64,000 bases of DNA from an uncultured Pelagibacteraceae bacterium (lineage in GTDB: Bacteria > Pseudomonadota > Alphaproteobacteria > Pelagibacterales > Pelagibacteraceae). Positions 3,642 through 23,893 of the stretch are shown here, piece by piece. Location: assembly GCA_902597175.1 (NCBI GenBank), contig CACJWN010000002.1, positions 62,001 through 126,000 of the forward strand. The letters run 5' to 3'. Numbering within the stretch: position 1 is the first letter of the stretch; each line of letters starts with the position of its first letter. Under the pieces are notes generated by a model, which saw nothing but the letters and a program-made list of their open reading frames with translations, had not been told where the DNA came from and did no database searches. The position numbers and the translations under genes were made by a program.

Positions 3642-4415
3642 TTAGAATGTTAAAGCCCTATAGATCATTACAGCGCCTCCAAGCACTACACAGACTTCAA
3701 TAATAATTGTATGCATCTTAACACCAAGTTTATCTGCTATTTTTTTTGCTGTATAAGATCCAAATATAGAAACTAGACCAATTAGAGATCCAACATATAA
3801 AGCATCTAAGTTTAATAAACCTAAATTCCAAAATGATATAAGTCTTATTGTGCAATTGATTAATGTTACAAAAGCATCAGTGCCGATAATCTGTCCTCCG
3901 ACCAAACCGTTTGCAGCTAGAGCTGTAAGCAAAACAGAACCTGGACCTAATATTACTCCGCTTATTGTTCCATAAAAAATTGCCATTATCCCTAAACCAA
4001 ACCACCCAATATTAAGATTTATTTTTTTAAAAACTCTTCTTAAAATAACAATAAACGCTAAACCAAAACCTAAACAAAAATATAATGTTTTTTCTGATAC
4101 CGCTGCATAGAAATTTGTTCCTGCTATTAAAAAAGGGGTAGATATGATTGCAAAGTAAAAACCTTTTTTCCAAAAAATATTTTTTCTGTAATAATACATT
4201 CTTGATAAGTTCGAAAATAAGACAAACACAGACATTAATGGGACTAAAAGTTTTACAGGTATAAAAGGAGAGACCAACAAACCTAAAGTCATACCACCTC
4301 CATAGCCGGAAATACCAGATACAACTGAAGCAAAAAAAGCAGTTAAGATTAATATTGAGAGTTCTAAAAAACCAAGGCTTGCAAAAAGAGCTGCTATATC
4401 AAAATTTGACTCCAT
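3642..4415 (-). CDS. TauE/SafE family sulfite exporter-like permease
   Basis: 257 aa, multiple TM, SGISGYGGGMTLGLLVSPFIP N-terminal motif. Confidence 0.85.
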   Translation of the reverse strand: MESNFDIAALFASLGFLELSILILTAFFASVVSGISGYGGGMTLGLLVSPFIPVKLLVPLMSVFVLFSNLSRMYYYRKNIFWKKGFYFAIISTPFLIAGTNFYAAVSEKTLYFCLGFGLAFIVILRRVFKKINLNIGWFGLGIMAIFYGTISGVILGPGSVLLTALAANGLVGGQIIGTDAFVTLINCTIRLISFWNLGLLNLDALYVGSLIGLVSIFGSYTAKKIADKLGVKMHTIIIEVCVVLGGAVMIYRALTF

Positions 4416-5768
4416 TTACTCTTTTAAGTTCAAATTACAGAGTTCAACTAATTCATCTACTGTGAAATTTTTATGGAGAATAAGATCAATTAAATCATCT
4501 GTTTGACTTGTTTTGAATACTTCCAATAATCGTTTTGATTTCGTCACAATATCCTTTTCATCCATTGGGTTATCAGGAGTGCCCCTAACTGACTTGGCGT
4601 GGTAAAATAATTCCTTATTATTACTAAATTTTATTCTAATTTTTGATTGCCTTTCAGGTCTTGCAATCGCTAATTCATCGCTAGAAACCGCTTTAATCTT
4701 TTTTCTTAAACTCACAACCTCAGGATCATCAAATAATTTTTCATCATGAGCCTCTACGTAACCCATTTTCTTTTTTATTAAATGAACGGCTATTAAATGC
4801 TGAGCACTTATTGATAAAATTTCTCTGTCATTTACAATGTGATACCTATCTGAGGGTATATCCACAACTAATTCAGTTATATCTTTATGATCAAATTTAT
4901 TATTTTTTAATAAATATTCAATAGCATCCATCATTGATTGAATTGGGGATCCTACTGACCATTTTTTTAGAGAAGCAGTATCAATTTTGAAATTCTCTCC
5001 AAGTTTTTCTACTATTAGCTTTGGATTTGGATTATGGGCAAATCCCTCATGAAAACCTCTTTCACCTAACAGTGGGTCGGTTACTGATGTAAAATTTTCT
5101 TTAGCTAAGAGGGCAGAATAAATTGCGTTTCTAGTTGTCATACCTGAAAATACGAATGCTTTCTCAATATGATCCGGGTCTCTATTCCAACACGCTAAAC
5201 CCGAAGTTTGTTGAACTGTGTATGATAAAAGATAATTACATTGTTCATGAGTTAGCTTAAGTAAAGCACCTGCTGAGGCAGCACAACCAAATATTGGCCC
5301 GATACTATGAGTAGCAAAAATAGAAGTTTTAGGAGTTTTATATCCTAAGCTTGTTGTAATTCTTACACCTACGTCATAACCTAAAGCAATTGCTTTAAGG
5401 ATTTCTTCACTACCTAATTTTTCTCTTTCAGCTACCGCTAAAGTAGCAGGGACGATAGCACAACCTGGATGAAATCTACCTTCTGTTGTTGAGTCATCAG
5501 TCTCATTTGCATGCGCTGCCATTCCATTGGAAAAACCAGCATTAATTGCTGAAACTTTTATATCGCTTCCAAGCAATGTGGACTCTTTTACACCACCTTG
5601 TGCTTTTGAGAATTTAAAAGCTTTTTTTCCAGGCAGCAGTAATCTACCAGTAAGTATAGATACTAGTGTATCTAATAGATGAAATCGAGTTTTAAACTCT
5701 GTTTTTTGTGGCAAGTCATTACTTAAAGCTTTAGAAATATATTTAGTTAATTCTTGTTGTACGTCCAT
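4416..5768 (-). CDS. MmgE/PrpD family protein
   Basis: AHANETDDSTTEGRFHPGCAIVPATLAVAE motif, GYDVGVRI, SVGSPIQSMMDA. Confidence 0.9.
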   Translation of the reverse strand: MDVQQELTKYISKALSNDLPQKTEFKTRFHLLDTLVSILTGRLLLPGKKAFKFSKAQGGVKESTLLGSDIKVSAINAGFSNGMAAHANETDDSTTEGRFHPGCAIVPATLAVAEREKLGSEEILKAIALGYDVGVRITTSLGYKTPKTSIFATHSIGPIFGCAASAGALLKLTHEQCNYLLSYTVQQTSGLACWNRDPDHIEKAFVFSGMTTRNAIYSALLAKENFTSVTDPLLGERGFHEGFAHNPNPKLIVEKLGENFKIDTASLKKWSVGSPIQSMMDAIEYLLKNNKFDHKDITELVVDIPSDRYHIVNDREILSISAQHLIAVHLIKKKMGYVEAHDEKLFDDPEVVSLRKKIKAVSSDELAIARPERQSKIRIKFSNNKELFYHAKSVRGTPDNPMDEKDIVTKSKRLLEVFKTSQTDDLIDLILHKNFTVDELVELCNLNLKE

Positions 5769-7279
5769 TAATAAATTCCTTTAATTTTATTATTATCTAA
5801 ATTCAAAAAACCCTCTTTACAATTCACATTAAGTCTTTTTACATCATCTTGGTTTAAATTGCTTAAATTATCAATCAAATTTAAAAATCTTTGTTCTTCT
5901 TTTTCTTCTACAATATTTTTAAACAATTTTTTCATCTTATTAATATAATTTTCTCTTACAAAAGGTGTTTTACCTTTGGGATGTGCATTTGCATAATCTA
6001 ATTGGTCAGTAATTTTATCATTATTATTTAATATAATTTCAACTTTTGCTCCTTGAGCTTTCTTTAAAGGATCACTCACATCATAATATTTTTTATTCCA
6101 TTCATCACTTTCGAACGTTTCAATTTTATTCCACAAATCAATAGTTTCTTTCCTCTTTTTTCTATTTTCTGCGTAACTTTTTTCATGGTGCCATTCACCG
6201 TCTTCAAGCGCTACTGCAAATATATACATTGCAGAATGATCGAGTGTTTCTCTTGAGGCCTCAGGACTATATTTTTCTTTGTCATTACTTCCACTACCCA
6301 TAACTATGTGAGTGTACTCTTTCGTAAATATATTTATTTTTTTTATTTCCTTTGTGTCTTTAATCTTTTTTCTCATATTAAACGCTAAATCAATTAACGA
6401 GTTTCCGTGATATCCAGCTGAATGTTCTTTTGTAAAAGTATTTAAAATTCCTTCTCTTGGCTCATTGGTCTCAGGAAGTTGAATTTTAATCTCTTCGCTA
6501 ATTTTTTTTAATAAAATTTGAACAATTCCATAATCACCTTCCCAAACAGGACTTGGAGAAGTATCTCCTCTGATCGCTCTATCTATTGCATCAATTGCAT
6601 TTTTTCCAACTAATCCAGGGGCGTATGCTTTCCAACTTGACAACTTACCTTTTCTTCCTTGTCTTGTAAAAACTGAGGTATGAGCACTCCACTGTATTGC
6701 TTGGTAAATCGTTTCAGTATCAAGTTTTAATAGTTTACCTAGCCCACTTGTAATAGCTGGACCTAAATGACCAACGTGATCTATTCGGTTAGGATTAAGG
6801 GCTATAGACAACGATAACCTTAGTTGTGTCTCGTAACTAGTGGCTATTGCTTTTACTAATTCTTCTCCATTACAATTTTTTTGCTGAGCTACAGCTAATA
6901 TTGTGGGAATACAATCTCCAGGATGACAAGTCTCTTTGGCCATTATATTGTCGTGAAAATCTAATTCTCTTACAGCTACAGCATTAGCCCATGCAGCCCA
7001 CTGACAATCATATTTTTTACTTTGATCTAAACCAAAAAGAGTTGATCCATAATTATTTTCAAATTTCATTGCTTGAGCTCTAGCAATTTTGACCGCTTTA
7101 TTATTTAATGCAGCGATTGCAACCCCTGCGTTATCTATAATTCTATTGCCAACCATATCTGAAATTTCTTTAGTTAAACTCCAATCTTCTGCGGCCATAT
7201 TTGCAATAAGCCATGCAAGTTGATTTTCTTTTTCTATTTTTGTTCCAGGTTTTTGAAGTTTAATTTTGTAAGATTTCAT
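5768..7279 (-). CDS. MmgE/PrpD family protein, 2-methylcitrate dehydratase (PrpD)-like
   Basis: LDFHDNIMAKETCHPGDCIPTILAVAQ, KAYAPGLVGKNAIDAIDRA, C-terminal YANAHPKGKTPF as in PrpD. ORF track starts at 7339; MKSYKIKLQ (7279) chosen as likely start. Confidence 0.88.
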   Translation of the reverse strand: MKSYKIKLQKPGTKIEKENQLAWLIANMAAEDWSLTKEISDMVGNRIIDNAGVAIAALNNKAVKIARAQAMKFENNYGSTLFGLDQSKKYDCQWAAWANAVAVRELDFHDNIMAKETCHPGDCIPTILAVAQQKNCNGEELVKAIATSYETQLRLSLSIALNPNRIDHVGHLGPAITSGLGKLLKLDTETIYQAIQWSAHTSVFTRQGRKGKLSSWKAYAPGLVGKNAIDAIDRAIRGDTSPSPVWEGDYGIVQILLKKISEEIKIQLPETNEPREGILNTFTKEHSAGYHGNSLIDLAFNMRKKIKDTKEIKKINIFTKEYTHIVMGSGSNDKEKYSPEASRETLDHSAMYIFAVALEDGEWHHEKSYAENRKKRKETIDLWNKIETFESDEWNKKYYDVSDPLKKAQGAKVEIILNNNDKITDQLDYANAHPKGKTPFVRENYINKMKKLFKNIVEEKEEQRFLNLIDNLSNLNQDDVKRLNVNCKEGFLNLDNNKIKGIY

Positions 7280-7376
7280 AATATGAAATGACATTTTACA
7301 TATTGAACTTAAGTCTAATATCGTGTTAACTTTTGTCAATTATATATAACAACTAACAAACAAAATGGGAGAATAT

Positions 7377-8390
7377 ATGATAAAATTAACTAAAAAGTTT
7401 TTTGCTTTATCTGCGTTCTTATCTGCACTTGTTTTTGCTTCATTTGCTATAATTTCAAATGCTGAGGCATCTTCTCATTCTAAGAAGAAAGGAACTTTTG
7501 CTACTGAGGCTTGCGATCCAATCCAAGTAGTAATTCACGCTTCTTACGGTGGTGGAACTGATACGACTGCAAGAATGATGTCTATTAGATCTAGAAGAAC
7601 TCTTGCTGCTGATATGCAAATTGTTGGTAAAAGAGGTGGATCAGGAGCTAAAGCTCAGAACTACACTTTAACTAGACCAAAAGATGGTTGTACAATAATG
7701 GCTCTAACTGAGTCTCACTTGTATACTATGGCTAGAGGAAAATCTGACATGAAGATCGATGATCTTGTTGGAGTTGCTAGAGCTATGGAAGAACCAACTT
7801 TTATTGTTGTTAACGCTAAAAATAAAGAGTTAAGCACAATTAAAAAGTTTATCAAAAGATCTCAAAAGAAACCTATCGTAACTGCTATCGCATCTATTGG
7901 AGGAACAGAGCACATTGGAATGTATAACTATTCTAAAACTGCTGGTGTGCCTTTCAAAGCGGTATCATTTGGATCAGGAGCGCAAAGCTTACAAGCATTA
8001 GCTTCTGGTAAAGTAGAGGCTTCATTACTTAACCCTTCTGAAGCAGCGGCTTTAATTGAAGATAAAAAAATTAAAGCAATTCTATTGTTACATGACAAAA
8101 AAATGGCTGATTATCCAAAAGTACCAACTTCGTACGAAATGGGTCATGAAGTTAAAGTTGTGACTACAAGAGGTTACGCTGTACTTAAAGGAACTCCACC
8201 AGAGAGAATAAAAGAACTTTCTGATGGAATGGTAAAAGCTATGCAACATGAAACTTTTGGAAATTATCTTAAAGGTGCATCTCTAGACCCTAAAACTAGC
8301 CCAGCTGGTACAGAGGTTTGGGATAAGCAACTTAAAGAAAATTACAAAAAAGCTGCAGAAGCTCTTAAAGGTTTAGGTTTAACTAATTAG
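7377..8390 (+). CDS. Tripartite tricarboxylate transporter substrate-binding protein, TctC family
   Basis: Signal peptide, IQVVIHASYGGGTDTTARMMS, followed by TctB and TctA; GGGAG ribosome-binding site upstream of ATG at 7377. Confidence 0.9.
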   Translation: MIKLTKKFFALSAFLSALVFASFAIISNAEASSHSKKKGTFATEACDPIQVVIHASYGGGTDTTARMMSIRSRRTLAADMQIVGKRGGSGAKAQNYTLTRPKDGCTIMALTESHLYTMARGKSDMKIDDLVGVARAMEEPTFIVVNAKNKELSTIKKFIKRSQKKPIVTAIASIGGTEHIGMYNYSKTAGVPFKAVSFGSGAQSLQALASGKVEASLLNPSEAAALIEDKKIKAILLLHDKKMADYPKVPTSYEMGHEVKVVTTRGYAVLKGTPPERIKELSDGMVKAMQHETFGNYLKGASLDPKTSPAGTEVWDKQLKENYKKAAEALKGLGLTN

Positions 8391-8393
8391 TTA

Positions 8394-8924
8394 ATGTCTA
8401 ACCAAAAAAAAATACATGATTTCGCGCCCAGAACTTTGGGCGCGGGATTCGTTCATAAAAAAGATTTAGTTCTTGCGATAATTTTAGTCGCGTTCGGAGC
8501 CTTTATGTATTATGAGGCTAGTAAGTTTCCTGAAGCACCAGCAATATTAGGAGATACACTTAACGCTGATGTATTTCCAAAAATGTTGATTACAATAATG
8601 TTTTTGTTGGTTGCAATTATACCTTTCGAATTTAAATTAACCCCTGACAAAGTAGCGAAAATTGACAAAGATCGGGATGATAAAACTTTAACAATTACGT
8701 GGTTAACGATTTTACTATTATTAACAATAGTATCTTTTGCTGAATATTTAGGAGCTGTAGTAACAATGGTTATTACTTGCCTGGCACTACCGCTACTGTG
8801 GGGTGAAAGGAATTATATTGCAGTAATTATTTATTCAATTTTATTCCCTGGATTTGTTTACTTATTATTTAACAAACTCTTAGGTTTATATTTCAACCCA
8901 GGTATTTTGGAGGCATTTAAATAG
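8394..8924 (+). CDS. Tripartite tricarboxylate transporter small membrane protein, TctB family
   Basis: 176 aa, four TM, between TctC and TctA genes. Confidence 0.85.
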   Translation: MSNQKKIHDFAPRTLGAGFVHKKDLVLAIILVAFGAFMYYEASKFPEAPAILGDTLNADVFPKMLITIMFLLVAIIPFEFKLTPDKVAKIDKDRDDKTLTITWLTILLLLTIVSFAEYLGAVVTMVITCLALPLLWGERNYIAVIIYSILFPGFVYLLFNKLLGLYFNPGILEAFK

Positions 8925-8928
8925 CATT

Positions 8929-10413
8929 ATGGAAGATGTAATAAGAGGTTTTCAATTATTAATGGAGGTGCAAAACCTAGCCTTAATTTTTGGCGGGGTT
9001 TTGATTGGTGTATTAGTTGGTGCTTTACCAGGACTGAGTTCGCCAATGGCTATAGCTTTACTAATGCCATTTACAATTAGTCTAGATCCAGTTGCATCAA
9101 TTTCTATGATGGCTGCTCTATATTGCGCAGGAACCTTTGGTGGTTCCATCACAGCAATATTAATTAATGCACCAGGAGCACCACCAGCGGTAGCTACTGC
9201 TTTAGATGGATACATGATGGCAAAAAAAGGTGAACCAGGAAGAGCCCTTGGTTTAGCGGCGATCTGTAGTGTCTTAGGTGGAATTTTTGCAATTATAATA
9301 TTTTTGTTTGCTACTCCACTATTAGCAGAGATAGCTCTTAAATTTGGGCCAGTTGAATATTTTGGTCTAACATTATTTGCTTTATCTATGTTAGCCGCAA
9401 TGAGTGGAAAATCATCTATAAGAAATTTAATAGCTGGAGCTATGGGAGTTTTAGTATCAACGATAGGTGTACACTTAGCAACTGGTGTAGAAAGATATGA
9501 ATTTGGTGTTCCTGAATTAACAGAAGGAATTAAGTTTGTCCCAGTTCTAATAGGACTTTTTGCAATGTCCGAACTACTCAATCAATCAAAAACACTTAAT
9601 GCTGCAGTGGAGAGAATGTCAGCGAAAGCTTTAAAACTTCCAACAATTGCAGAACTAAAAGAATTAAAAGGTACAATTTTAAGATCATCCGGTTTAGGGA
9701 CATTCATAGGTATTTTACCTGCAGAGGGAGCGACTGTAGCTGCAATGATGGGTTACAATGAAGCGAAAAGATTTTCTAAAACTCCAGAAAAATTTGGTAC
9801 GGGATGTGCCGAAGGTATCGCTGGGCCAGAAGCTGCCAATAATGCTGCAGCTGGTGGAGCGATGGTTCCAACCCTAGCTTTAGGAATACCTGGTAGTGGA
9901 ACTACAGCATTAATTTTGGCTGCATTAGTAATGCACGGTTTTCGACCTGGACCTTATCTGATTTCAGAAACTCCACACTTAGTTTATGCAATATTTGGCG
10001 CAATGTTGTTTGCTAATTTTGCCTTTTTAGGAATTGGTTTAGTGGGAGCTAAGTTCTTTTCATATGTAACTTTTATTCCAAAAAGATTTTTGTGGCCATC
10101 AGTGTTTATTTTCTCTTTAATCGGATCATATGCATATAGCTCAGCAATATTTGATGTTTGGGTAATGCTAATCTCAGGTATCATTGGTTATTTTGCATTG
10201 AGAAACGGATTTTCTCCAGCTCCATTCGTAATGGGACTGATATTAGGAAAAATGGTAGAGGAAACATTCACTCAATCAATGGTGATTTATGAGAGTAATT
10301 TTTTCAATTTCTTTGAAAGTGGAGTATTTATCTTCTTCATAATTCTTACGTGTATCAGTCTTACAACACCTTTCTGGGGTACAATCCGCAAAAAATTAGC
10401 TGCAAAAAGTTGA
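8929..10413 (+). CDS. Tripartite tricarboxylate transporter large permease, TctA family
   Basis: 494 aa, GALPGLSSPMAIALLMPFT, PEAANNAAAGGAMVPTLALGIPGSGTTALIL motifs. Confidence 0.95.
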   Translation: MEDVIRGFQLLMEVQNLALIFGGVLIGVLVGALPGLSSPMAIALLMPFTISLDPVASISMMAALYCAGTFGGSITAILINAPGAPPAVATALDGYMMAKKGEPGRALGLAAICSVLGGIFAIIIFLFATPLLAEIALKFGPVEYFGLTLFALSMLAAMSGKSSIRNLIAGAMGVLVSTIGVHLATGVERYEFGVPELTEGIKFVPVLIGLFAMSELLNQSKTLNAAVERMSAKALKLPTIAELKELKGTILRSSGLGTFIGILPAEGATVAAMMGYNEAKRFSKTPEKFGTGCAEGIAGPEAANNAAAGGAMVPTLALGIPGSGTTALILAALVMHGFRPGPYLISETPHLVYAIFGAMLFANFAFLGIGLVGAKFFSYVTFIPKRFLWPSVFIFSLIGSYAYSSAIFDVWVMLISGIIGYFALRNGFSPAPFVMGLILGKMVEETFTQSMVIYESNFFNFFESGVFIFFIILTCISLTTPFWGTIRKKLAAKS

Positions 10414-11174
10414 GCAAGGATTTCAATAAAAACAAAGTTGCAGTTCTTACTGGCGCAGCAAAGAAAATTGGAAGATCAACAGCAATAAAATTAGCAGAGC
10501 AAGGTTTTAATATATTAATTCATACTGGTGGCAAAAGCATCGAGGAAGCTAAAGATACAATAAAATTACTTGAAAAGTTTAAAATTAAATCAAACTACGT
10601 TACAGGGGACCTAGCAAATTTAGAAACAATTAATATCATTAAAGATGCGGCTTTAAAACTAGGAACGCCATCTGTTCTTGTAAATAATGCCGGATTGAGA
10701 ATCCACGAGCATTTTGAAAAGATAGATTATAAAGATTGGAAAAAAGTGATGACTGTGAATGTCGATGCTTCATTTTTATGTGCTCAAGCTTTAATTAATT
10801 ATATGGTAAAACAAAAATGGGGACGGGTAATTAATATTGGTGGTTTATCAGCACATATAGGGGCAAAAGAAAGAGCTCACGTTGTAACTTCAAAAGCAGC
10901 TTTAGTTGGTTTAACAAAAGCTATTAGTATGGAATTTATAGAGAAAGGTGTAACTTGTAATTGCGTTGTTCCTGGATTTATTGAAGATTTTGATAGCAAA
11001 GAAACTAAACTAAGTGGTCACTGGTTGCGCCACCCTCAAACACCTAGTTTGGTACAAAATAGATTTGGAAATCCAGACGAAGTAGCGGAAGTCATTGCAA
11101 ATCTTTGTAAGAAAGAAGCTGATTATATAAATGGACAGACTCTTCATGTGAATGGTGGTAGTTATACTCCATGA
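10410..11174 (+). CDS. SDR family NAD(P)-dependent oxidoreductase
   Basis: TGAAKKIGRSTA cofactor motif, NNAG, S-x12-K active-site region (GLSAHIGAKERAHVVTSKAA). TTG at 10410 overlaps the TctA stop; the ORF track uses an upstream ATG at 10350. Confidence 0.82.
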   Translation: MSKDFNKNKVAVLTGAAKKIGRSTAIKLAEQGFNILIHTGGKSIEEAKDTIKLLEKFKIKSNYVTGDLANLETINIIKDAALKLGTPSVLVNNAGLRIHEHFEKIDYKDWKKVMTVNVDASFLCAQALINYMVKQKWGRVINIGGLSAHIGAKERAHVVTSKAALVGLTKAISMEFIEKGVTCNCVVPGFIEDFDSKETKLSGHWLRHPQTPSLVQNRFGNPDEVAEVIANLCKKEADYINGQTLHVNGGSYTP

Positions 11175-12520
11175 CAATTTCTGAAGATTTTTCTAAATGG
11201 GCAAAAAATTTATCGACTAAAGATATTTCTGATAAGTCAAAGAAGACTTTAAATTATCTAATTAAAGATATTTGTGGAATTATCCTTTCTGCTAGAAATG
11301 AAAATTACGTTCAAAGTCTTGTTAAAGCTTATAAAGGATCAGGAAAATTTATTTCATTAGGACATGGGAGTGACTTTGATATTTCCTCCTCTGCTATAAT
11401 TGCGGGTACTGCTGCACATGGTGAAGACTTCGACGATACATTCGAGGGAAATCCTATGCATGTTGGAGCTTGTATGATTCCGGCTATATTAGCTGCAGCG
11501 CAAAGATTTAATTTAAATGGTGATCAGATTTTAAAAAGTTTAGCTGTAGGTACAGAGTTAATGTGTAGATTAGCCTTGGTTGCGCCAACTGCCATGCATA
11601 AACAAGGCTTTCATCCTACTGCTGTTTGCGGTACTTTTGGTGTAGCAGCTGGCCTTTCATCTGTTTTAAATTTAACTGAAAAGCAGATGGTGTCTTCATT
11701 AGGAATAGCCGGTAGTTTTACTTCAGGAATTATCGAATATCTTGCAGAAGGTTCTTGGACTAAAAGAATTCATCCTGGATGGTCTGCCAACTCAGGGATA
11801 AATTCTGTTTTAATAGCTCAAACAGATTTTTATGGACCTAGGACTGTTTTCGAGGGTGATCACGGTTTCTTTAGCGCTTTTGCAATTAAAGAAGTAAAAA
11901 GAGATTATTCTAAATTAACTGACTCTCTAGGTTCAAGGTGGGAAATAGAAAATTTGGCTTTTAAACCATTTGCTTGTGGAACTATGGCTCAGCCATTTGT
12001 AGATTGTGCAATTAAATTAAGAGACAAAATAAAAGACTTTAAAAAGATTAAATCTATAAAGGCAAAAGTTGGAGAGGGTACAGTACATCGGTTATGGGAG
12101 CCTTCTAAAGAAAAAAAGAAACCTTCCACACCATACTCTGCAAAATTTTCTGTCCCGTACTGTGTTGCTGTAGGCTTCATAAGAAAAGACGCAGGATTAA
12201 AAGAATTTGATGAGAAAAGCATAAATGATAAAGAAATTTTAGACTTAGCTAATAAAGTTGAGTATGAAGTTGACCCAAATGATGAATATCCAAAAAATTA
12301 TACAGGAACTTTGACTTGTATTACAGAAGAGGGAAAATTCACTGAACATCAACCTTGTTTTAGAGGAGGTAGAAAACAACCCTTGACAGAAAATGATATT
12401 GATAAAAAATTTAATGCAAATCTCAATTACTCTAAAATTAATGAAACCGAAAAAAATAATGTTAAAGATTTTATTAAAAATATTTTTACGAAGCCAAATT
12501 TTTCAAAAATTTTAACTTAG
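11171..12520 (+). CDS. MmgE/PrpD family protein
   Basis: AHGEDFDDTFEGNPMHVGACMIPAILAAAQ, GFHPTAVCGTFGVAAGL; ATGA overlap with upstream SDR gene. Confidence 0.92.
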   Translation: MTISEDFSKWAKNLSTKDISDKSKKTLNYLIKDICGIILSARNENYVQSLVKAYKGSGKFISLGHGSDFDISSSAIIAGTAAHGEDFDDTFEGNPMHVGACMIPAILAAAQRFNLNGDQILKSLAVGTELMCRLALVAPTAMHKQGFHPTAVCGTFGVAAGLSSVLNLTEKQMVSSLGIAGSFTSGIIEYLAEGSWTKRIHPGWSANSGINSVLIAQTDFYGPRTVFEGDHGFFSAFAIKEVKRDYSKLTDSLGSRWEIENLAFKPFACGTMAQPFVDCAIKLRDKIKDFKKIKSIKAKVGEGTVHRLWEPSKEKKKPSTPYSAKFSVPYCVAVGFIRKDAGLKEFDEKSINDKEILDLANKVEYEVDPNDEYPKNYTGTLTCITEEGKFTEHQPCFRGGRKQPLTENDIDKKFNANLNYSKINETEKNNVKDFIKNIFTKPNFSKILT

Positions 12521-12524
12521 TAGA

Positions 12525-13283
12525 ATGGAATATTCTATTTTATTACCTCAAACGATTTCAATTAACAGTGCAATATTTTTAATTTTTTTTAATTTTTTAA
12601 CATGTTTTATATCAACTGCACTTAGTCTAGGTGGAGGAATGTTGATGCTTGTGGGATTATCATTTATTTTACCAACAACAGCTTTAATACCGGTACACGG
12701 GCTTGTACAGCTTGGTTCTAATTTTGGAAGAATTTTTGTTTCAATTAAAGATTTAGATAAAAAGATTATTTTGCCTTTTGTCATTGGAACAATAGTGGGG
12801 TCTCTTTTTGGAGCAAATATAGTTGATTATCTATCTCCTGGAGTAGGACAAGTTGGGGTAGGTTTATTTATATTATATTCTTTATTCGGTACTTTTCCGC
12901 CACTAGGGAGAAAATATATTTTAGTTGGGGGTATCGCTACTACAATAATGTCGATGTTATTTGGTGCATCAGGACCAATAGTTTCTACTCTGATAAGAAA
13001 TATGGGTTTTAACCCTACAAAGCATGTGACAATTCATGGAGCATTCATGACTTCACAACACCTATTTAAATCAATTGGTTTCTTTTTTATTGGTTTTGCT
13101 TTTCAAGAATATATTCTACTCGTAGCGACAATGATTTTTGTAGGTTTTTTTGGTACTTATTTTGGAAAAAAAGTATTAATTTCAAAAGGTAAACACTACT
13201 TTCAAAAAGTTTTAACAATCATTTTACTATTAGGTGGAATAAGAATTATTTACTTGGGTCTACAAAATTTAAATTTATTATAG
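12525..13283 (+). CDS. TauE/SafE family permease
   Basis: 252 aa, multiple TM, ALSLGGGMLMLVGLSFILP and PVHGLVQLGSNFGR motifs. Confidence 0.82.
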   Translation: MEYSILLPQTISINSAIFLIFFNFLTCFISTALSLGGGMLMLVGLSFILPTTALIPVHGLVQLGSNFGRIFVSIKDLDKKIILPFVIGTIVGSLFGANIVDYLSPGVGQVGVGLFILYSLFGTFPPLGRKYILVGGIATTIMSMLFGASGPIVSTLIRNMGFNPTKHVTIHGAFMTSQHLFKSIGFFFIGFAFQEYILLVATMIFVGFFGTYFGKKVLISKGKHYFQKVLTIILLLGGIRIIYLGLQNLNLL

Positions 13284-17138: not shown

Positions 17139-18200
17139 ATGAATTCAAGTAAAAGATATAAAAAATCTGAATTAACTAATTTTACATATAATATTTTGAA
17201 GAAAGTAGGCTTAAATAATTCAAATTCTAAAATAATTTCAGACTTAATTATAAGAGCAGATGAAAGAGGAGTTTGGTCACATGGTATTGTTAGACTTCCG
17301 GTCTATGTAAATCGAATTGAAAAAAAAGCAGCTAAAAAGAATCCAAATTTTAAATTTAAAAAAATTTCAAATAATATTTTTCATTTATCTGGGGATAATG
17401 GTCTTGGGTATTTAGCTGCTAATGCGGGTATAAAAAAATGCGTTGCTTTAGCTAAAGAAAAAGGCATAGGTCTAGTTGCGATAAGTAAAAGCAATCATTT
17501 CGGCATGGCCGCCAATTATTTAGAATTTGCATCAAAAAACAAATGTATTGCATGGGTGTACACCAATGCTTCAAAAGCATTACCGCCTCACGGTGCTATG
17601 GCTCCATTTTTTGGCACAAGCCCTTTTGCATTTGGATGTCCAACAAAAAATAAAAATAAGCCCTTTATCTTAGACATGGCTTCATCCTCCGTAGCAAGAG
17701 GTAAATTAAAATTTGCAGCTCAAAAAAAAATCAAAATACCTTTCGGATATGCTTTAGATAAATTTGGGAAACCTACCAATGATGGATCAAAGGCTTTTGA
17801 AGGCATTATGTTGCCTTTTGGAGGAATGAAAGGTGCCGGTATATCCTGGATGATGGATATAGTAGCAGGTATTTTTACTGGGGCAAACCATAGTGGTAAA
17901 GTTAAAAATGCAATCAATGATTTTTCTGGTCCGTCAAATGTAGGACACTTAATGATTTGTATGAGGACAGATTTATTTCAGTCACATAATAGTTTTATAA
18001 AAAAAATTGAATTTGGTTTTAAAAAAGTAAAAAAACTGAAAAAGGCAAAAGGTTTTAAGACAATTTTGCACCCAGGAGAACCAGAATATTTAAATTATCT
18101 TTCAAATAAAAAAAAAGGTATTAGTTTGTCCAGGGGAATAATTATTGAGCTCAATAAACTAGCACAAAAATATAATGTAAAGACCCCTTTTAAAATTTAG
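17139..18200 (+). CDS. Ldh2 family malate/L-lactate/ureidoglycolate-type dehydrogenase
   Basis: ADERGVWSHGIVRLP, SNHFGMAANY, PHGAMAPFFGTSPFAFGCP motifs. Confidence 0.88.
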   Translation: MNSSKRYKKSELTNFTYNILKKVGLNNSNSKIISDLIIRADERGVWSHGIVRLPVYVNRIEKKAAKKNPNFKFKKISNNIFHLSGDNGLGYLAANAGIKKCVALAKEKGIGLVAISKSNHFGMAANYLEFASKNKCIAWVYTNASKALPPHGAMAPFFGTSPFAFGCPTKNKNKPFILDMASSSVARGKLKFAAQKKIKIPFGYALDKFGKPTNDGSKAFEGIMLPFGGMKGAGISWMMDIVAGIFTGANHSGKVKNAINDFSGPSNVGHLMICMRTDLFQSHNSFIKKIEFGFKKVKKLKKAKGFKTILHPGEPEYLNYLSNKKKGISLSRGIIIELNKLAQKYNVKTPFKI

Positions 18201-19659
18201 CTGCTGATTTTCCTGCAATCTTTCCAAAAACTGCTCCAGAAGTAAGCCCACTACCTCCAGGATAATTAAAATAAAAAATTCCACCAATTATCTCGCCTGC
18301 TGCAAATAACCCTTTAATAGGTTTTCTAAATTTATTTAAAACCTGGCAGTTTTTATCTACCTTTAATCCTCCGAAGGTAAAAGTTATTCCACATGTAACA
18401 CCGTAAGCATAAAATGGTGGCTTATCGATTAAGTTTGCCCAATTAGTTTTATTTATTTTTAATCCAGTTGTTTTTTTTCCGTCTTTAATTGTTGGGTCAA
18501 ACTTAATATTTTTTGTAACAGCATTATTATATAAAAAGATTGTTTTTAAAGCTTTTGATCTGTTCATTCCTTTGATCTTGTATATTAAATCTTTAATAGA
18601 GTTAGCTTTAATCATTGTTGCAGATTTTACATCATACTCTGGGTATAACATATGGCGTACTTTTTTATCAAAAATTTGCCAACCAACTTGTTTAGGTTGG
18701 TTTATTACTTCACGTCCAAACTTAGCATAAGTAAAATTTCTAAAATCCTCTCCCTCATCAACAAATCTTTCACCTTTCAGATTTAAAACAATTCCCCAAG
18801 GATAACTAATTTTTCTATACTTATTACTAATTTTTAAGTCACTAAACTCAGGACCATTCATATCATGGAAAACCGCATGACATCCTGACCAGTTCCCAAA
18901 TGGCATAGCTCCAATTTTCAAGGCCATACTTAATCCATCACCTGTATTGTGTCTTGTTCCTCTTACTTTAGCTGCCTCCCAGCCTACACCTAAATGCTTC
19001 TTTCTCATTTTTGAGCTAGATTCGAACCCACCACAAGCAAGTATCACAGATTTTGAAAAGATTTTCTTAATCTTTTTTTTATGTAATATTTTGACACCAC
19101 ATACAATTTTTTTCTTAAAAATTAATTCAGTTACTGCCGTATCGTATTGAATCTTAATTCCATTTTTTTTTACTATATTCAATAATGAGTCAACTAGTTT
19201 TTCACCTTGTCCGTTTACTTCTAATGTGAGTCCACCCCAATACTTCATTATTCCGTTTACTTTAAAGGATTGTCTTCCTTTTATTGGTTTAAATTTTAAA
19301 CCTTTTTTACTTAACCAATGTATTGTCTCGAAGCTTTTTGAGGTTAATGTTTTAGATAAATATTTATCCGTCTTTCCTTGAGTAACTTTGATCATATCTC
19401 TAAGGAAATTTGAAGAAGTGTACTTACCATAATCAATTTTTTTTGTATGTTTTAAGTTAGGAATTATTTTTTTTAAATCTGAAAAACCTTTATAGGCAAA
19501 TCTGTAAGCTCCATTAGTGTATCTGCTATTACCACCGCGATCTTTTTTTGAAGCCTTCTCTAAAACTAAAATGTTTTTTGCGCCATTTTCCTTTGCTGAT
19601 ATTGCTGCAGAAAGAGCAGCATTTCCCGCTCCAACGATTACTAAATCAAAGGTATCCAT
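18190..19659 (-). CDS. FAD-dependent dehydrogenase, tricarballylate dehydrogenase (TcuA)/fumarate-reductase flavoprotein-like
   Basis: Rossmann DLVIVGAGNAALSAAISAKENGA, GGNSRYTNGAYRFA, C-terminal AAGEIIGGIFYFNYPGGSGLTSGAVFGKIAG. Confidence 0.8.
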   Translation of the reverse strand: MDTFDLVIVGAGNAALSAAISAKENGAKNILVLEKASKKDRGGNSRYTNGAYRFAYKGFSDLKKIIPNLKHTKKIDYGKYTSSNFLRDMIKVTQGKTDKYLSKTLTSKSFETIHWLSKKGLKFKPIKGRQSFKVNGIMKYWGGLTLEVNGQGEKLVDSLLNIVKKNGIKIQYDTAVTELIFKKKIVCGVKILHKKKIKKIFSKSVILACGGFESSSKMRKKHLGVGWEAAKVRGTRHNTGDGLSMALKIGAMPFGNWSGCHAVFHDMNGPEFSDLKISNKYRKISYPWGIVLNLKGERFVDEGEDFRNFTYAKFGREVINQPKQVGWQIFDKKVRHMLYPEYDVKSATMIKANSIKDLIYKIKGMNRSKALKTIFLYNNAVTKNIKFDPTIKDGKKTTGLKINKTNWANLIDKPPFYAYGVTCGITFTFGGLKVDKNCQVLNKFRKPIKGLFAAGEIIGGIFYFNYPGGSGLTSGAVFGKIAGKSAAKF

Positions 19660-19703
19660 TAGTTTGTTTTATTATATTTATTTAAAAGATAAAGATAAAT
19701 TTT

Positions 19704-19720
19704 GTTTTACAATATAAAAC
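19704..19720. promoter_or_regulatory. Candidate IclR-type operator palindrome (site A)
   Basis: GTTTTACAATATAAAAC, perfect outer arms GTTTTA/TAAAAC, 45 bp upstream of the flavoprotein start; matches two sites upstream of the iclR-family gene. Confidence 0.6.
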
Positions 19721-19762
19721 TAAAAATTTATTATGAAACGGATAGCAATATTCTGAATTTAA

Positions 19763-21187
19763 TTATTTAGATAAAAGCTTACTTAATTTAGAGATATCTT
19801 TTACTTTTTCAAGATTTCTCACCAATTCGATAAGGGCTTTTGATTTTTTTGATGGCCACTTGGCGAACTCACAACAACCTAAAAATTTGTCTGCAACTTC
19901 ATCGTAAGACATTGGAATCATAGGGCTTCCTTTACCAAAATCTCCACGACCAGATATTTTCTTTCCATTTTTTAAATAAATATCAATTATTGTAGTCATT
20001 TTGTCGTATCCAGCTGCCTCAGCAACTTTGTTCTTATAAAAATTTACTTTTCTAAGCATTTGCTGAACATCTGGTTTGTTTATTCTTTTGTCTTGATACT
20101 CAGGGATATAAGCACGTCTTTGCACCAAAAGGATAGCCATCGAATATTCCATACTAAACTTCGCTTGGAATTCATTGGTAGGTCTATGGTGGATTAAAGC
20201 GTTTTGCATATTATGGTTAGTGCCTACATCAACCTTAACAACTTCATTTGGCTTAATGTCATGTTTTAAAATTAACTCAAGCATTTTCGTCATTCCCGGA
20301 TGTGTTAATGAACCACAAGGGTGAGGTTTAATTGAAACACCAGGTTTCGAAAAAGTCCATGGTCTTCCGAGCTGGCCTTTTACTGAATTTAAATTGTAGC
20401 CTCCACCATGAGCTTGGAAAAACCCTCTTGGTGACTCCAAAATTTTATCAGTTGCTGACCATCCAAAACCAACTAAGTCGCATGCAACGACGCCACTTTC
20501 AGCAGCTCTCCCTGCATGTAATGGTTTTGTCATTGTACCAAAATTTTCTCTTAAGCCAGCACTCATTGTAGCTGCTATAGCTAAAGATTGTTGGATTTGA
20601 GATACATTATAACCTCTAATTTTTGCAGCAGCAGCAGCAGAGGCTAAAGTCCCGCAAGTTGCTGTCGAATGAAAACCATGTTGATAGTGCCTTGGCGACA
20701 TTGCTTCAGAAACCTTACATTCAACATCCACACCAATTAAATATGCGTTTAAAAAAGCTTTACCATTAATTTTTTTTAACTCTCCCTCAGCAAAAGCACT
20801 TGGTAAACAAGGGGCAGTTGGATGTGTTAACAAGCCATAAACTCTATCTTTTTGAACAGCTAATTGAGTATCGTCATAATCATCAGAGTGTATCCCGGTG
20901 CCATTGGCTAGTGCAGCAAATCGAGATGTCACTTTCATTTTTGAACCAATTACAGTAGCTCTTCCTTTTGCAGAGTTATTTTTAATATGTTTAAATAAAT
21001 AATCTCCAGTTCTTGCTACTGATCCTGATAAAGCTAACCCGAAACCATCTAAAATGTGTTTTTTAGCTAACTCAACAACGTTTTTAGGAATTGATTGATA
21101 CTTATTTTTTTTAACAAATTCAGCAACGTACTTTGTAAGGTTTTTTCCTTTATCTGATTTAATATTTGGTGTGTAAGCTTTTCCCAT
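19763..21187 (-). CDS. MmgE/PrpD family protein
   Basis: GIHSDDYDDTQLAVQ...LTHPTAPCLPSAFAEGE, GFHSTATCGTLASAAAAAK. Confidence 0.9.
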   Translation of the reverse strand: MGKAYTPNIKSDKGKNLTKYVAEFVKKNKYQSIPKNVVELAKKHILDGFGLALSGSVARTGDYLFKHIKNNSAKGRATVIGSKMKVTSRFAALANGTGIHSDDYDDTQLAVQKDRVYGLLTHPTAPCLPSAFAEGELKKINGKAFLNAYLIGVDVECKVSEAMSPRHYQHGFHSTATCGTLASAAAAAKIRGYNVSQIQQSLAIAATMSAGLRENFGTMTKPLHAGRAAESGVVACDLVGFGWSATDKILESPRGFFQAHGGGYNLNSVKGQLGRPWTFSKPGVSIKPHPCGSLTHPGMTKMLELILKHDIKPNEVVKVDVGTNHNMQNALIHHRPTNEFQAKFSMEYSMAILLVQRRAYIPEYQDKRINKPDVQQMLRKVNFYKNKVAEAAGYDKMTTIIDIYLKNGKKISGRGDFGKGSPMIPMSYDEVADKFLGCCEFAKWPSKKSKALIELVRNLEKVKDISKLSKLLSK

Positions 21188-21240
21188 AACAATTTGTAGT
21201 GATTTCTTAGTTCAGCAAAAAAATTATAGATTGTCAACAA

Positions 21241-21257
21241 ATTTTATAATATAAAAT
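21241..21257. promoter_or_regulatory. Candidate IclR-type operator palindrome (site B)
   Basis: ATTTTATAATATAAAAT, 14/17 identical to site A, in divergent promoter region. Confidence 0.55.
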
Positions 21258-21261
21258 GTCT

Positions 21262-21278
21262 GTTTCACAATGCAAAAC
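21262..21278. promoter_or_regulatory. Candidate IclR-type operator palindrome (site C)
   Basis: GTTTCACAATGCAAAAC, 14/17 identical to site A, centre 21 bp from site B and immediately upstream of ATG 21281. Confidence 0.55.
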
Positions 21279-21280
21279 AC

Positions 21281-21958
21281 ATGAGCAACATTAAAGTTCT
21301 AGACAAAACTTTTCAGATTTTAAATTCATTTGATGATGCTAATAAAAGTGTTTCTTTAAAAGAACTTTCCTCAACTACAAAGCTTAATAAATCTACAATT
21401 TTGAGGATCTGTAACTCACTAATTAAATACAATTTTTTAATCAAAAATGAAGTTAATGGTAGCTATCGTTTAGGACCAGGCAGTTGGAAATTAGGTTCAA
21501 TTTACAACTCAAACTTTAAATCGGGAGAAGAGATAAGGTCAATACTAAATAGAATATTAGAAGCCACAGGTCAATCAGCTGGGTATTGGGTAAAAGCAGG
21601 TAGTAAAAAAGTTTGTTTGTATAGAGTAAACTCAAAGTCGGAACTTAACCATTATGTAGTTGAAGGGACTACATTTGAGTTAAAATCGGCTACTGGAAAA
21701 GTAATAAAAGCTTATACTCAAAATGATCAAGAGCTTAAAAATTTGATAAATAAAAAAGGTTATATTTATACTGCAGGAGAAAGATTGGATAACATAGCAA
21801 GTGTCGCTGTTCCAATATTTAACAATAAGGAAAATTTTACCGGTACATTAAGTATATCTGGTTGGAGACAATTTTTTACAAATAAATCAGTAGCAAAATT
21901 TCATAAAATTTTATCCGGGTATCAAAATCAAATGAAAAGACTTGTATCTAATGAATAA
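21281..21958 (+). CDS. IclR family transcriptional regulator
   Basis: N-terminal wHTH (TFQILNSFDDANKSVSLKELSSTTKLNKSTILRICNSLIKYNFL), IclR effector domain with SVAVPIFN. Confidence 0.92.
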   Translation: MSNIKVLDKTFQILNSFDDANKSVSLKELSSTTKLNKSTILRICNSLIKYNFLIKNEVNGSYRLGPGSWKLGSIYNSNFKSGEEIRSILNRILEATGQSAGYWVKAGSKKVCLYRVNSKSELNHYVVEGTTFELKSATGKVIKAYTQNDQELKNLINKKGYIYTAGERLDNIASVAVPIFNNKENFTGTLSISGWRQFFTNKSVAKFHKILSGYQNQMKRLVSNE

Positions 21959-22793
21959 AAAAACTCAAACATTAAAAAAGTATTTTAATGATAAAAAATC
22001 TTATAAAATCCCGACTTGCCATGACCCTCTTTCTATTAAGTTAATTGAAAAAAAGGGTTTTAAAATTGGATTTATAGGAGGTTTCGCACTCTCATCTGCT
22101 AGCTTTGGATATCCGGACGCTAGTGTAATTTCTAGAAAAGAACTTGTTGAATCGACTAAACTAATTTGCAATCAATCAAAAATTCCAATTATTGTAGATG
22201 CTGATACTGGTTTTGGAGATTTGAAGAATGTTTTTAAAACAGTTAAGGATCTTTCGCACGCCGGTGCATCGGCTTTAATTCTAGAAGATCAGGTATTTCC
22301 AAAAATATGTGCCTTAACAGATAAAGTAAAATTGCTAGATATGAAAAATGCATCAAAAAGAATTAAGACAGCAATTAAAGCCTCTAAAAAAACAAAAGGT
22401 ATTTTAATAATAGCAAGAACTGATGCTTTAACTAACAATTCAATCAAAGAAGCTGTAAATAGAGCAAATTTATATAAAAAATTAGGAGCTGATGCCATTT
22501 TTATTACAGGGATTAATAATACTAAGCAAGCAGATATAATTTCTAAAGAAGTTAAAAACATACCACTTTTTATAAATATCACAGAAAAAATTAAATTTAA
22601 TACGAATAAAATTAAAAAGAGTAGCTTTAAGTTTATTTTATATTCTCAACAGGTGCTAAATAGCTATGTCGACTCAACAAATCAAACACTTGACTTAATT
22701 AAAAAAAATAAAAACCCTAAATTCAAAAACAAAGCAAGCGATACCCTTAATTTACTAGAATTAAAAAAATATCTAAAAATAAAACAAAATTAA
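21951..22793 (+). CDS. Isocitrate lyase/PEP mutase superfamily protein
   Basis: PIIVDADTGFGD, GASALILEDQVFPK, IIARTDAL motifs; ATG at 21951 overlaps the iclR stop. Confidence 0.87.
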   Translation: MNKKTQTLKKYFNDKKSYKIPTCHDPLSIKLIEKKGFKIGFIGGFALSSASFGYPDASVISRKELVESTKLICNQSKIPIIVDADTGFGDLKNVFKTVKDLSHAGASALILEDQVFPKICALTDKVKLLDMKNASKRIKTAIKASKKTKGILIIARTDALTNNSIKEAVNRANLYKKLGADAIFITGINNTKQADIISKEVKNIPLFINITEKIKFNTNKIKKSSFKFILYSQQVLNSYVDSTNQTLDLIKKNKNPKFKNKASDTLNLLELKKYLKIKQN

Positions 22794-22795
22794 TT

Positions 22796-23854
22796 ATGAA
22801 AAATTATTATTTAGCAATGAAGAGAAGTTATAAGAGTATCTTAATAGGTATCTTAGGGGGCTATCTTGCTACATTAATAAATTTACCTTTACCATGGCTT
22901 TTAGGAGCTTTGTTGTTAAATCTTGTAGTATCTTTTACCAGTTACAAAATTACTTTTGATAAAAAAATTTTTCTTCCTGTTTTATTAATAATTGGTGTAA
23001 TACTTGCTGGATCATTTAATATCTCATTATTATATAAAATCCATCTTTGGATATATTCTTCTATCGCAATGATTATATGTACAATTGTTGGAACAGTAGT
23101 TGTTGCATTTTATTTTGTAAAAATTTGTAAATTTAAAAAATATGTTTCAACATTGGCTGCTTTACCTGGCGCATTTGTTGTTATATCAACTGCAATTAGC
23201 GATATTACAAATAATAAAAAAGAAAGAGGCCAAGTAGTTATTCCTCAAGCTACTAGAGTATTATTTGTTGTTCTTTTCTTGCCTTTTATATTTGTAACCC
23301 AAATAGGCTATCAAGAAATAGACTCTTTTGGAAATATTGCTACATATAATTTAAGGTATTTTCTAGAAATAATTTTTTTAATTATTGTTTCCTTAATTGG
23401 AACAAAAGTTTTAGAAAAATTTAGAATACCATCTGCTCCAATACTAGCAGCAATGATAGTCGCTGGTTTTTTCTATACTCTAGAACTAACAACTGCACGT
23501 TTCCCCGATATTTTTATTAATGTAGCTTTAGTTTTTTTAGGATCTGCGATTGGGTGTAGATTAAGTGGTTTAGCACCGAAAGAAATATTATTTTTTTCTT
23601 TTCATGGCGCTATAATGTCAGCAATATTACTAGGTATTGCTGCTATTTTTGCTTACATTTTAAAAATATATTTAGGCTTTGACTTCATGGCTGCCTTTTT
23701 AAGTTTTGCTCCAGGAGGGCTTCATGAGGTAGTAGTTATAAGTGTTGCTTATGACATTGACCCATTATTTGTGACTTACCACCATTTTCTAAGAGTATTC
23801 TTTATAATTTTTTCTGTTCCATTTATTTTGAAGTTTTTGAGGAAAAAAAAATGA
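22796..23854 (+). CDS. AbrB family (putative ammonia monooxygenase-annotated) membrane protein
   Basis: Two duplicated halves, PLPWLLGALLLN and PSAPILAAMIVAGFFY, FAPGGLHEVVVISVAYDIDPLFVTYHHFLR. Confidence 0.82.
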   Translation: MKNYYLAMKRSYKSILIGILGGYLATLINLPLPWLLGALLLNLVVSFTSYKITFDKKIFLPVLLIIGVILAGSFNISLLYKIHLWIYSSIAMIICTIVGTVVVAFYFVKICKFKKYVSTLAALPGAFVVISTAISDITNNKKERGQVVIPQATRVLFVVLFLPFIFVTQIGYQEIDSFGNIATYNLRYFLEIIFLIIVSLIGTKVLEKFRIPSAPILAAMIVAGFFYTLELTTARFPDIFINVALVFLGSAIGCRLSGLAPKEILFFSFHGAIMSAILLGIAAIFAYILKIYLGFDFMAAFLSFAPGGLHEVVVISVAYDIDPLFVTYHHFLRVFFIIFSVPFILKFLRKKK

Positions 23855-23893
23855 AATTGCATTAACCTTTTCAAGATATAAAATGAAAACTGT

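Follow-up and report, generated by a model that had tools for sequence, protein, structure and literature searches.

The tricarballylate (tcu) operon is controlled by TcuR, a LysR-type regulator. For the IclR family, the survey by Suvorova and Gelfand (2021; PMC8222616) gives the group-1 operator consensus GKTYCRYW3RYGRAMC with a tandem spacing of 18-22 nt, describes tandem sites at this distance as predicted for 94 of 181 IclR groups, and holds no Pelagibacter or MmgE entry in its main text. BhcR of Paracoccus denitrificans, an alphaproteobacterium, acts as an activator; a palindrome has been predicted ahead of the bhcA -35 element, and a dual role has been proposed (PMC11323563). SAR11 bacteria have few regulators and their nutrient responses are mostly poorly mapped; in the literature on SAR11 IclR or TTT regulation nothing specific was found.

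Results

The Tricarboxylate Island and Its Regulator Gene

The window, i.e., the whole 64-kb stretch of DNA analyzed in this work, presents a G+C content of 31% and belongs to a genome (G000) of 988 kb that is 86% complete. A tricarboxylate island spans about 3.6-26 kb of the window and carries tctCBA (TTT transporter), four MmgE/PrpD paralogs including MmgE1, an AcnA-type aconitase and PrpF, an Ldh2-family dehydrogenase, a TcuA-like FAD dehydrogenase, an IclR-type regulator, a PrpB-like lyase, an AbrB-family membrane protein and a hydrolase. The four MmgE/PrpD paralogs (4416-5768, 5768-7282, 11171-12520, and 19763-21187) have diverged and lie together in a single island of this streamlined genome; of the two that were examined, neither reached an NCBIfam cut-off. 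MmgE1 (19763..21187, minus strand) has IDS epimerase and cis-aconitate decarboxylase as nearest solved relatives, and the TcuA-like FAD tricarballylate dehydrogenase (18190..19659, minus strand; the flavoprotein gene below) scored 550.9 bits with NF006130 (cut-off 369) and remained under the cut-off of TIGR02485 (240.7 vs. 372.55). Two further operons, both predicted to be regulated, diverge from each other: tctC-tctB-tctA, SDR, MmgE2, and a TauE-like gene on the plus strand (7365..13283), and MmgE3, MmgE4, and a TauE-like gene on the minus strand (3642..7282). The longest frame of MmgE3 (5768-7339) begins with a TTG at 7339, and the ATG at 7282, which overlaps site E described below, is the likelier start.

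The regulator gene (21281..21958, plus strand) encodes 225 amino acids, with an N-terminal HTH_IclR domain (PF09339, 32.2 bits; cut-off 22) and a C-terminal IclR_C domain (PF01614, 41.3 bits; cut-off 24), the latter finding its sole match of the whole genome in this protein. Its AlphaFold model matched IclR structures with E values down to 1.8e-16, which is a coarse check because the pLDDT is 78. An identical protein occurs in AG-914-O19, a single-cell Pelagibacteraceae (SAR11) assembly of the same genus. Two genes follow in the same operon on the plus strand, one of the PrpB/isocitrate-lyase superfamily (21951..22793), which overlaps iclR, and the AbrB-family membrane protein gene (22796..23854).

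Palindromic Sites in the Window

The sequence-only reading had proposed an IclR regulon from three near-identical 17-bp palindromes, A (GTTTTACAATATAAAAC, 19704..19720) as candidate operator of the flavoprotein gene, and B (ATTTTATAATATAAAAT, 21241..21257) and C (GTTTCACAATGCAAAAC, 21262..21278) between MmgE1 and iclR, with a weaker site D (23868-23884) at the hydrolase gene. Coordinates and letters of all four were exact, as were the 14/17 identities of B and of C with A and the 21 bp between the centres of B and C; B and C, however, agree at only 11/17 positions, so that "near-identical" is generous. Two bp separate the end of site C from the iclR start codon. Symmetric arm positions amounted to 7/8 in A, 8/8 in B, a perfect palindrome, 6/8 in C, and only 4/8 in D. 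The window holds 11 perfect 17-bp palindromes and 86 with 7/8 symmetric arms; single AT-rich palindromes being so common, symmetry alone is weak evidence.

A position weight matrix trained on sites from other genera only gave exactly four matches of at least 15 in the window: A (21.1), B (18.2), C (18.2), and a new site, E (ATTTCATAATATGAAAT, 7273..7289; 21.7), located in the divergent promoter between MmgE3 (minus strand) and tctC (plus strand), with the tctC operon 3' of it. The next-best match scored 14.8 and lies inside a coding gene. Dinucleotide shuffles of the window led to an expectation of 0.155 matches of at least 15, with a maximum of 2 in 200 shuffles, and in 2000 shuffles of each of two gaps the observed maximum was never reached. 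Each of the promoters also presented a second element in tandem. E is accompanied by a weaker partner, E2 (ATTTTACATATTGAACT, 7293..7309), with centres 20 bp apart, which overlaps the probable tctC -35 element; a half-site (GTTTCATAAT on the minus strand, 19730..19739) lies 19 bp upstream of A, as indicated by the alignment of flavoprotein upstream regions and by geometry.

Conservation Across Relatives

The gap between MmgE1 and iclR was aligned at first for 13 loci and then for 25 orthologous regions from four genera of Pelagibacteraceae. The pair B plus C was present upstream of iclR in all 25, at IclR identities down to 56%, with centres 20 or 21 bp apart. Fifteen of the 17 columns of B were invariant; of the two variable ones, one is the central A/T and the other differs in a single locus (L134). 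In C, 11 of 17 columns were invariant. The stretch 21229-21240 beside B, which reads TTGACA on the MmgE1 strand, had 9 of 12 columns invariant. Mean major-allele frequency over the 25 gaps was 0.97 in B, 0.95 in C, and 0.98 in this -35 flank vs. 0.68 in the remaining 41 columns, which have diverged. In one locus (L136), site C (GTTTCATATTATAAAAC) had changed in both arms with its symmetry kept, i.e., in a compensated manner.

In all readable loci, site A lay 45-70 bp upstream of the flavoprotein gene, in degenerate form in L032 and L127, and it was kept with this gene in L031, L033, L034, and L035, where the latter lies more than 3 kb from MmgE1. All relatives read over the corresponding region (G310, G295, G196, G475, G155, G007, G315, G032, and G158) had site E at this promoter, and the E2 core TTTT..AT..TTGA was conserved in the alignment. 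Thus, the palindromes proved to be conserved upstream of orthologs, B and C in the 25 regions and A along with the flavoprotein gene. From these comparisons, A, B, C, and E are conserved candidate control sites, well beyond chance.

Extent of the Regulon

The degenerate pattern RTTTYAYAWTRTRAAAY, derived from A, B, C, and their orthologs, matched exactly at A, B, and E and nowhere else in the 988-kb genome, so that the genome-wide scan confined exact matches to the island; C differs by one mismatch. Autoregulation and co-control of MmgE1 and the flavoprotein gene, as proposed in the sequence-only reading, are supported by the conservation of the sites and by their co-occurrence with the regulator gene, whereas the suggested extension to the hydrolase fails: D scored 3.8, with the low symmetry given above, and was not conserved outside the genus, being a chance resemblance. 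The regulon appears larger in the other direction, where E, as a predicted operator, marks the MmgE3/tctCBA divergent promoter 12 kb away and covers the uptake genes. The site was absent from the AcnA-like/PrpF and Ldh2 promoters of the window, and the regulon is therefore not the whole island; one additional site was found upstream of Ldh2 in HIMB114 (G007), the only genome with a site at this gene. In one-mismatch scans of eight genomes with IclR, totals were near those of the reversed-pattern control (8 vs. 5 in G000), and we therefore do not extend the regulon further. Matches at 10190, 15886, and 46701 were rejected as lying inside coding genes, and another at 46295 in G007 as being far from the island and within a coding frame of 309 amino acids.

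Co-occurrence of Motif and Regulator Gene

A close IclR ortholog was present in 11 of 397 genomes of the order. Ten of these contained 2-6 exact matches each, the exception being G355, where iclR is cut by the contig end; the 10 genomes with an intact locus totaled 34 matches, 33 of them in the island. The 386 genomes lacking IclR showed 37 exact matches spread over 36 genomes, almost all scattered singletons at about the frequency of the reversed-pattern control. At least two matches occurred in 10/11 genomes with IclR vs. 1/386 without it (Fisher P = 5e-18, a value that overstates independence, the genomes being related); genome counts are not independent events because the orthologs share ancestry. 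Sixteen genomes have an MmgE1 ortholog of 84-86% identity and no IclR ortholog, a natural knockout, and an exact match appeared in none of them; nor was the site found in the DNA upstream of MmgE1 in the 14 of these 16 in which it was readable.

In three larger regions without IclR (L158, L159, and L160, from G120, G347, and G022), the MmgE1 ortholog follows tctCBA, which links MmgE1 independently to tricarboxylate transport. A relative of MmgE3 (49-50%) and a PrpB-like gene lie nearby, and this layout may be an alternative arrangement of perhaps the same pathway.

The start of the recognition helix, NKSTI, was kept down to 56% IclR identity, with T39 nearly invariant. In distant IclR paralogs (27-32% identity) the recognition helix differs, and the start codons are preceded by other tandem palindromes, such as TTCTATTGAATAGAA/TTCTATTCAATAGAA, whose centres are separated by 22 bp. 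Just upstream of such paralogs in L013, L019, and L020 (G326, G116, and G190), tandem palindromes TTCTATTSAATAGAA have centres about 22 bp apart and probably serve a different IclR paralog as operators in these other SAR11 genomes. Another paralog group (L014-L018) carries GTTCTAATAGGTAGAAC-like palindromes, which lie about 55-70 bp ahead of the start codon and may represent a third type of operator. Distant paralogs adjoin AbrB genes in L040 and L042.

Promoter Geometry

The conserved TTGACA (21232..21237, minus strand), 3 bp downstream of B, is the probable -35 element of MmgE1, as judged from its near-invariance and geometry; after a spacer of 17 it is followed by a weak -10 element, TGAACT (21209-21214, minus strand; 3/6 match). 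For the flavoprotein gene, a probable -35 element TTTATC (19694..19699, minus strand) lies 4 bp downstream of A, with a -10 element TATAAT (19671-19676, minus strand), again with a spacer of 17. Counted from the first base of each predicted -35, the site centres fall at -12 (B), -33 (C), -13 (A), -32 (half-site), -22 (E), and -2 (E2). These positions follow one another at intervals of about ten bp, which keeps the sites on a single face of the helix with respect to the predicted -35. The register of E and E2 differs from that of the other sites, and E overlaps the likely MmgE3 start. The promoter boxes are weak, and the activator geometry hence rests on predicted -35 and -10 elements.

Discussion

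We consider it highly probable, on sequence evidence, that A, B, C, and E are operators of the IclR protein encoded at 21281-21958, which would control most of the uptake-and-catabolism island as an effector-sensing switch. The regulator would sense a tricarboxylate or a pathway intermediate; judging by the gene content, the inducer would most naturally be a tricarboxylate or an aconitate-type intermediate. One IclR dimer would bind each 17-bp palindrome, and tandem sites 19-21 bp apart (B and C, E and E2, A and its half-site) would seat two dimers on the same face of the helix. The position of A and B directly upstream of the -35 elements suggests activation of the flavoprotein gene and MmgE1, where the promoter-proximal site is centred 12-13 bp upstream of the first -35 base and bound regulator would contact RNA polymerase. 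Site C abuts the iclR start codon, which suggests autorepression; its occupation would repress iclR along with the downstream lyase and AbrB genes. From these positions we infer the sign of regulation as activation of the catabolic and uptake operons together with repression of iclR. At MmgE3, repression would fit the overlap of E with the likely start. As a tentative proposal, one effector-sensing IclR activator, carried by a minority of SAR11 genomes, would use phased tandem operators at three promoters to switch a dedicated regulon for tricarboxylate uptake and catabolism, made up of the TTT transporter, the four MmgE/PrpD paralogs, the TcuA-like dehydrogenase, and the PrpB-like lyase, and its substrate would be a tricarboxylate that SAR11 is not known to use.

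The same IclR could instead bind these sites purely as a repressor at all promoters, with the substrate releasing repression. Repressors are included in the family according to PMC8222616, C overlaps the iclR start region, E the likely MmgE3 start, and E2 covers the probable tctC -35; A and B, however, lie wholly upstream of the -35 at equal distance in two unrelated promoters, and the TTGACA beside B is almost invariant, which makes this reading rather unlikely. Its counterpart at the level of the binder, in which another transcription factor, and not the adjacent IclR, uses the palindromes as its operators, draws on the fact that the binder is deduced from sequence. It has to face the co-occurrence of sites and iclR across four genera and the absence of sites where MmgE1 persists without iclR, and also the fit of the motif to the published IclR class and the different palindromes that distant IclR paralogs have at their own promoters; we regard it as very improbable. 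Hardly credible is an origin by chance, or the conservation of a promoter -10 sequence for other reasons: the perfect palindromes of the window and the TATAAT contained in B speak for it, and the shuffles, the confinement within the whole genome, and the deep conservation, including the compensated change in C, refute it for A, B, C, and E. For D, chance is accepted.

Control by the adjacent IclR would tie the four MmgE/PrpD enzymes, all uncharacterised, to a single transporter and a single inducer. The predicted regulon, whose operator is defined and which has HIMB114 as a cultivated carrier and occurs naturally in some genomes but not in others, offers a direct test of catabolic-island switching, and the conserved site set allows new regulon members to be recognised by sequence.

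Among known systems, the group-1 operators, as presented in PMC8222616, are alike in being odd palindromes of 17 bp, arranged in tandem about two helical turns apart, at the regulator's own promoter and at neighbouring operons. The pattern RTTTYAYAWTRTRAAAY fits the group-1 consensus except at the relaxed positions 1/17 and 5/13, the latter taking T/A besides C/G, unlike the published operators, and E in other genera, e.g., GTTTCATAATGTGAAAC, fits it fully. Spacings of 20-21 (B-C), 20 (E-E2), and 19 (A and half-site) fall within the 18-22 nt of that group, and the sites, like group-1 operators, recur upstream of orthologs and go together with the regulator gene. BhcR (PMC11323563), a close precedent, is likewise an IclR-type activator divergent from enzyme genes, with a predicted palindrome upstream of the target -35 and proposed autorepression, and its model NF045644 was the top NCBIfam match of our regulator; the score of 65.8 bits against a cut-off of 350 places the protein outside that equivalog, and the pathway under BhcR control is the beta-hydroxyaspartate cycle. 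The second-best match was to PcaR/PcaU/PobR, which belong to the IclR family and activate catabolic operons (TIGR02431, 53.1 bits vs. a cut-off of 284.75, hence outside the subfamily), and PcaR was among the PDB fold matches; they differ in serving aromatic pathways, PcaU with three-box sites. The TcuR-controlled tcu operon shares the TcuA-type dehydrogenase, whereas the island uses an IclR protein and a TTT transporter. The arrangement is a textbook one for IclR.
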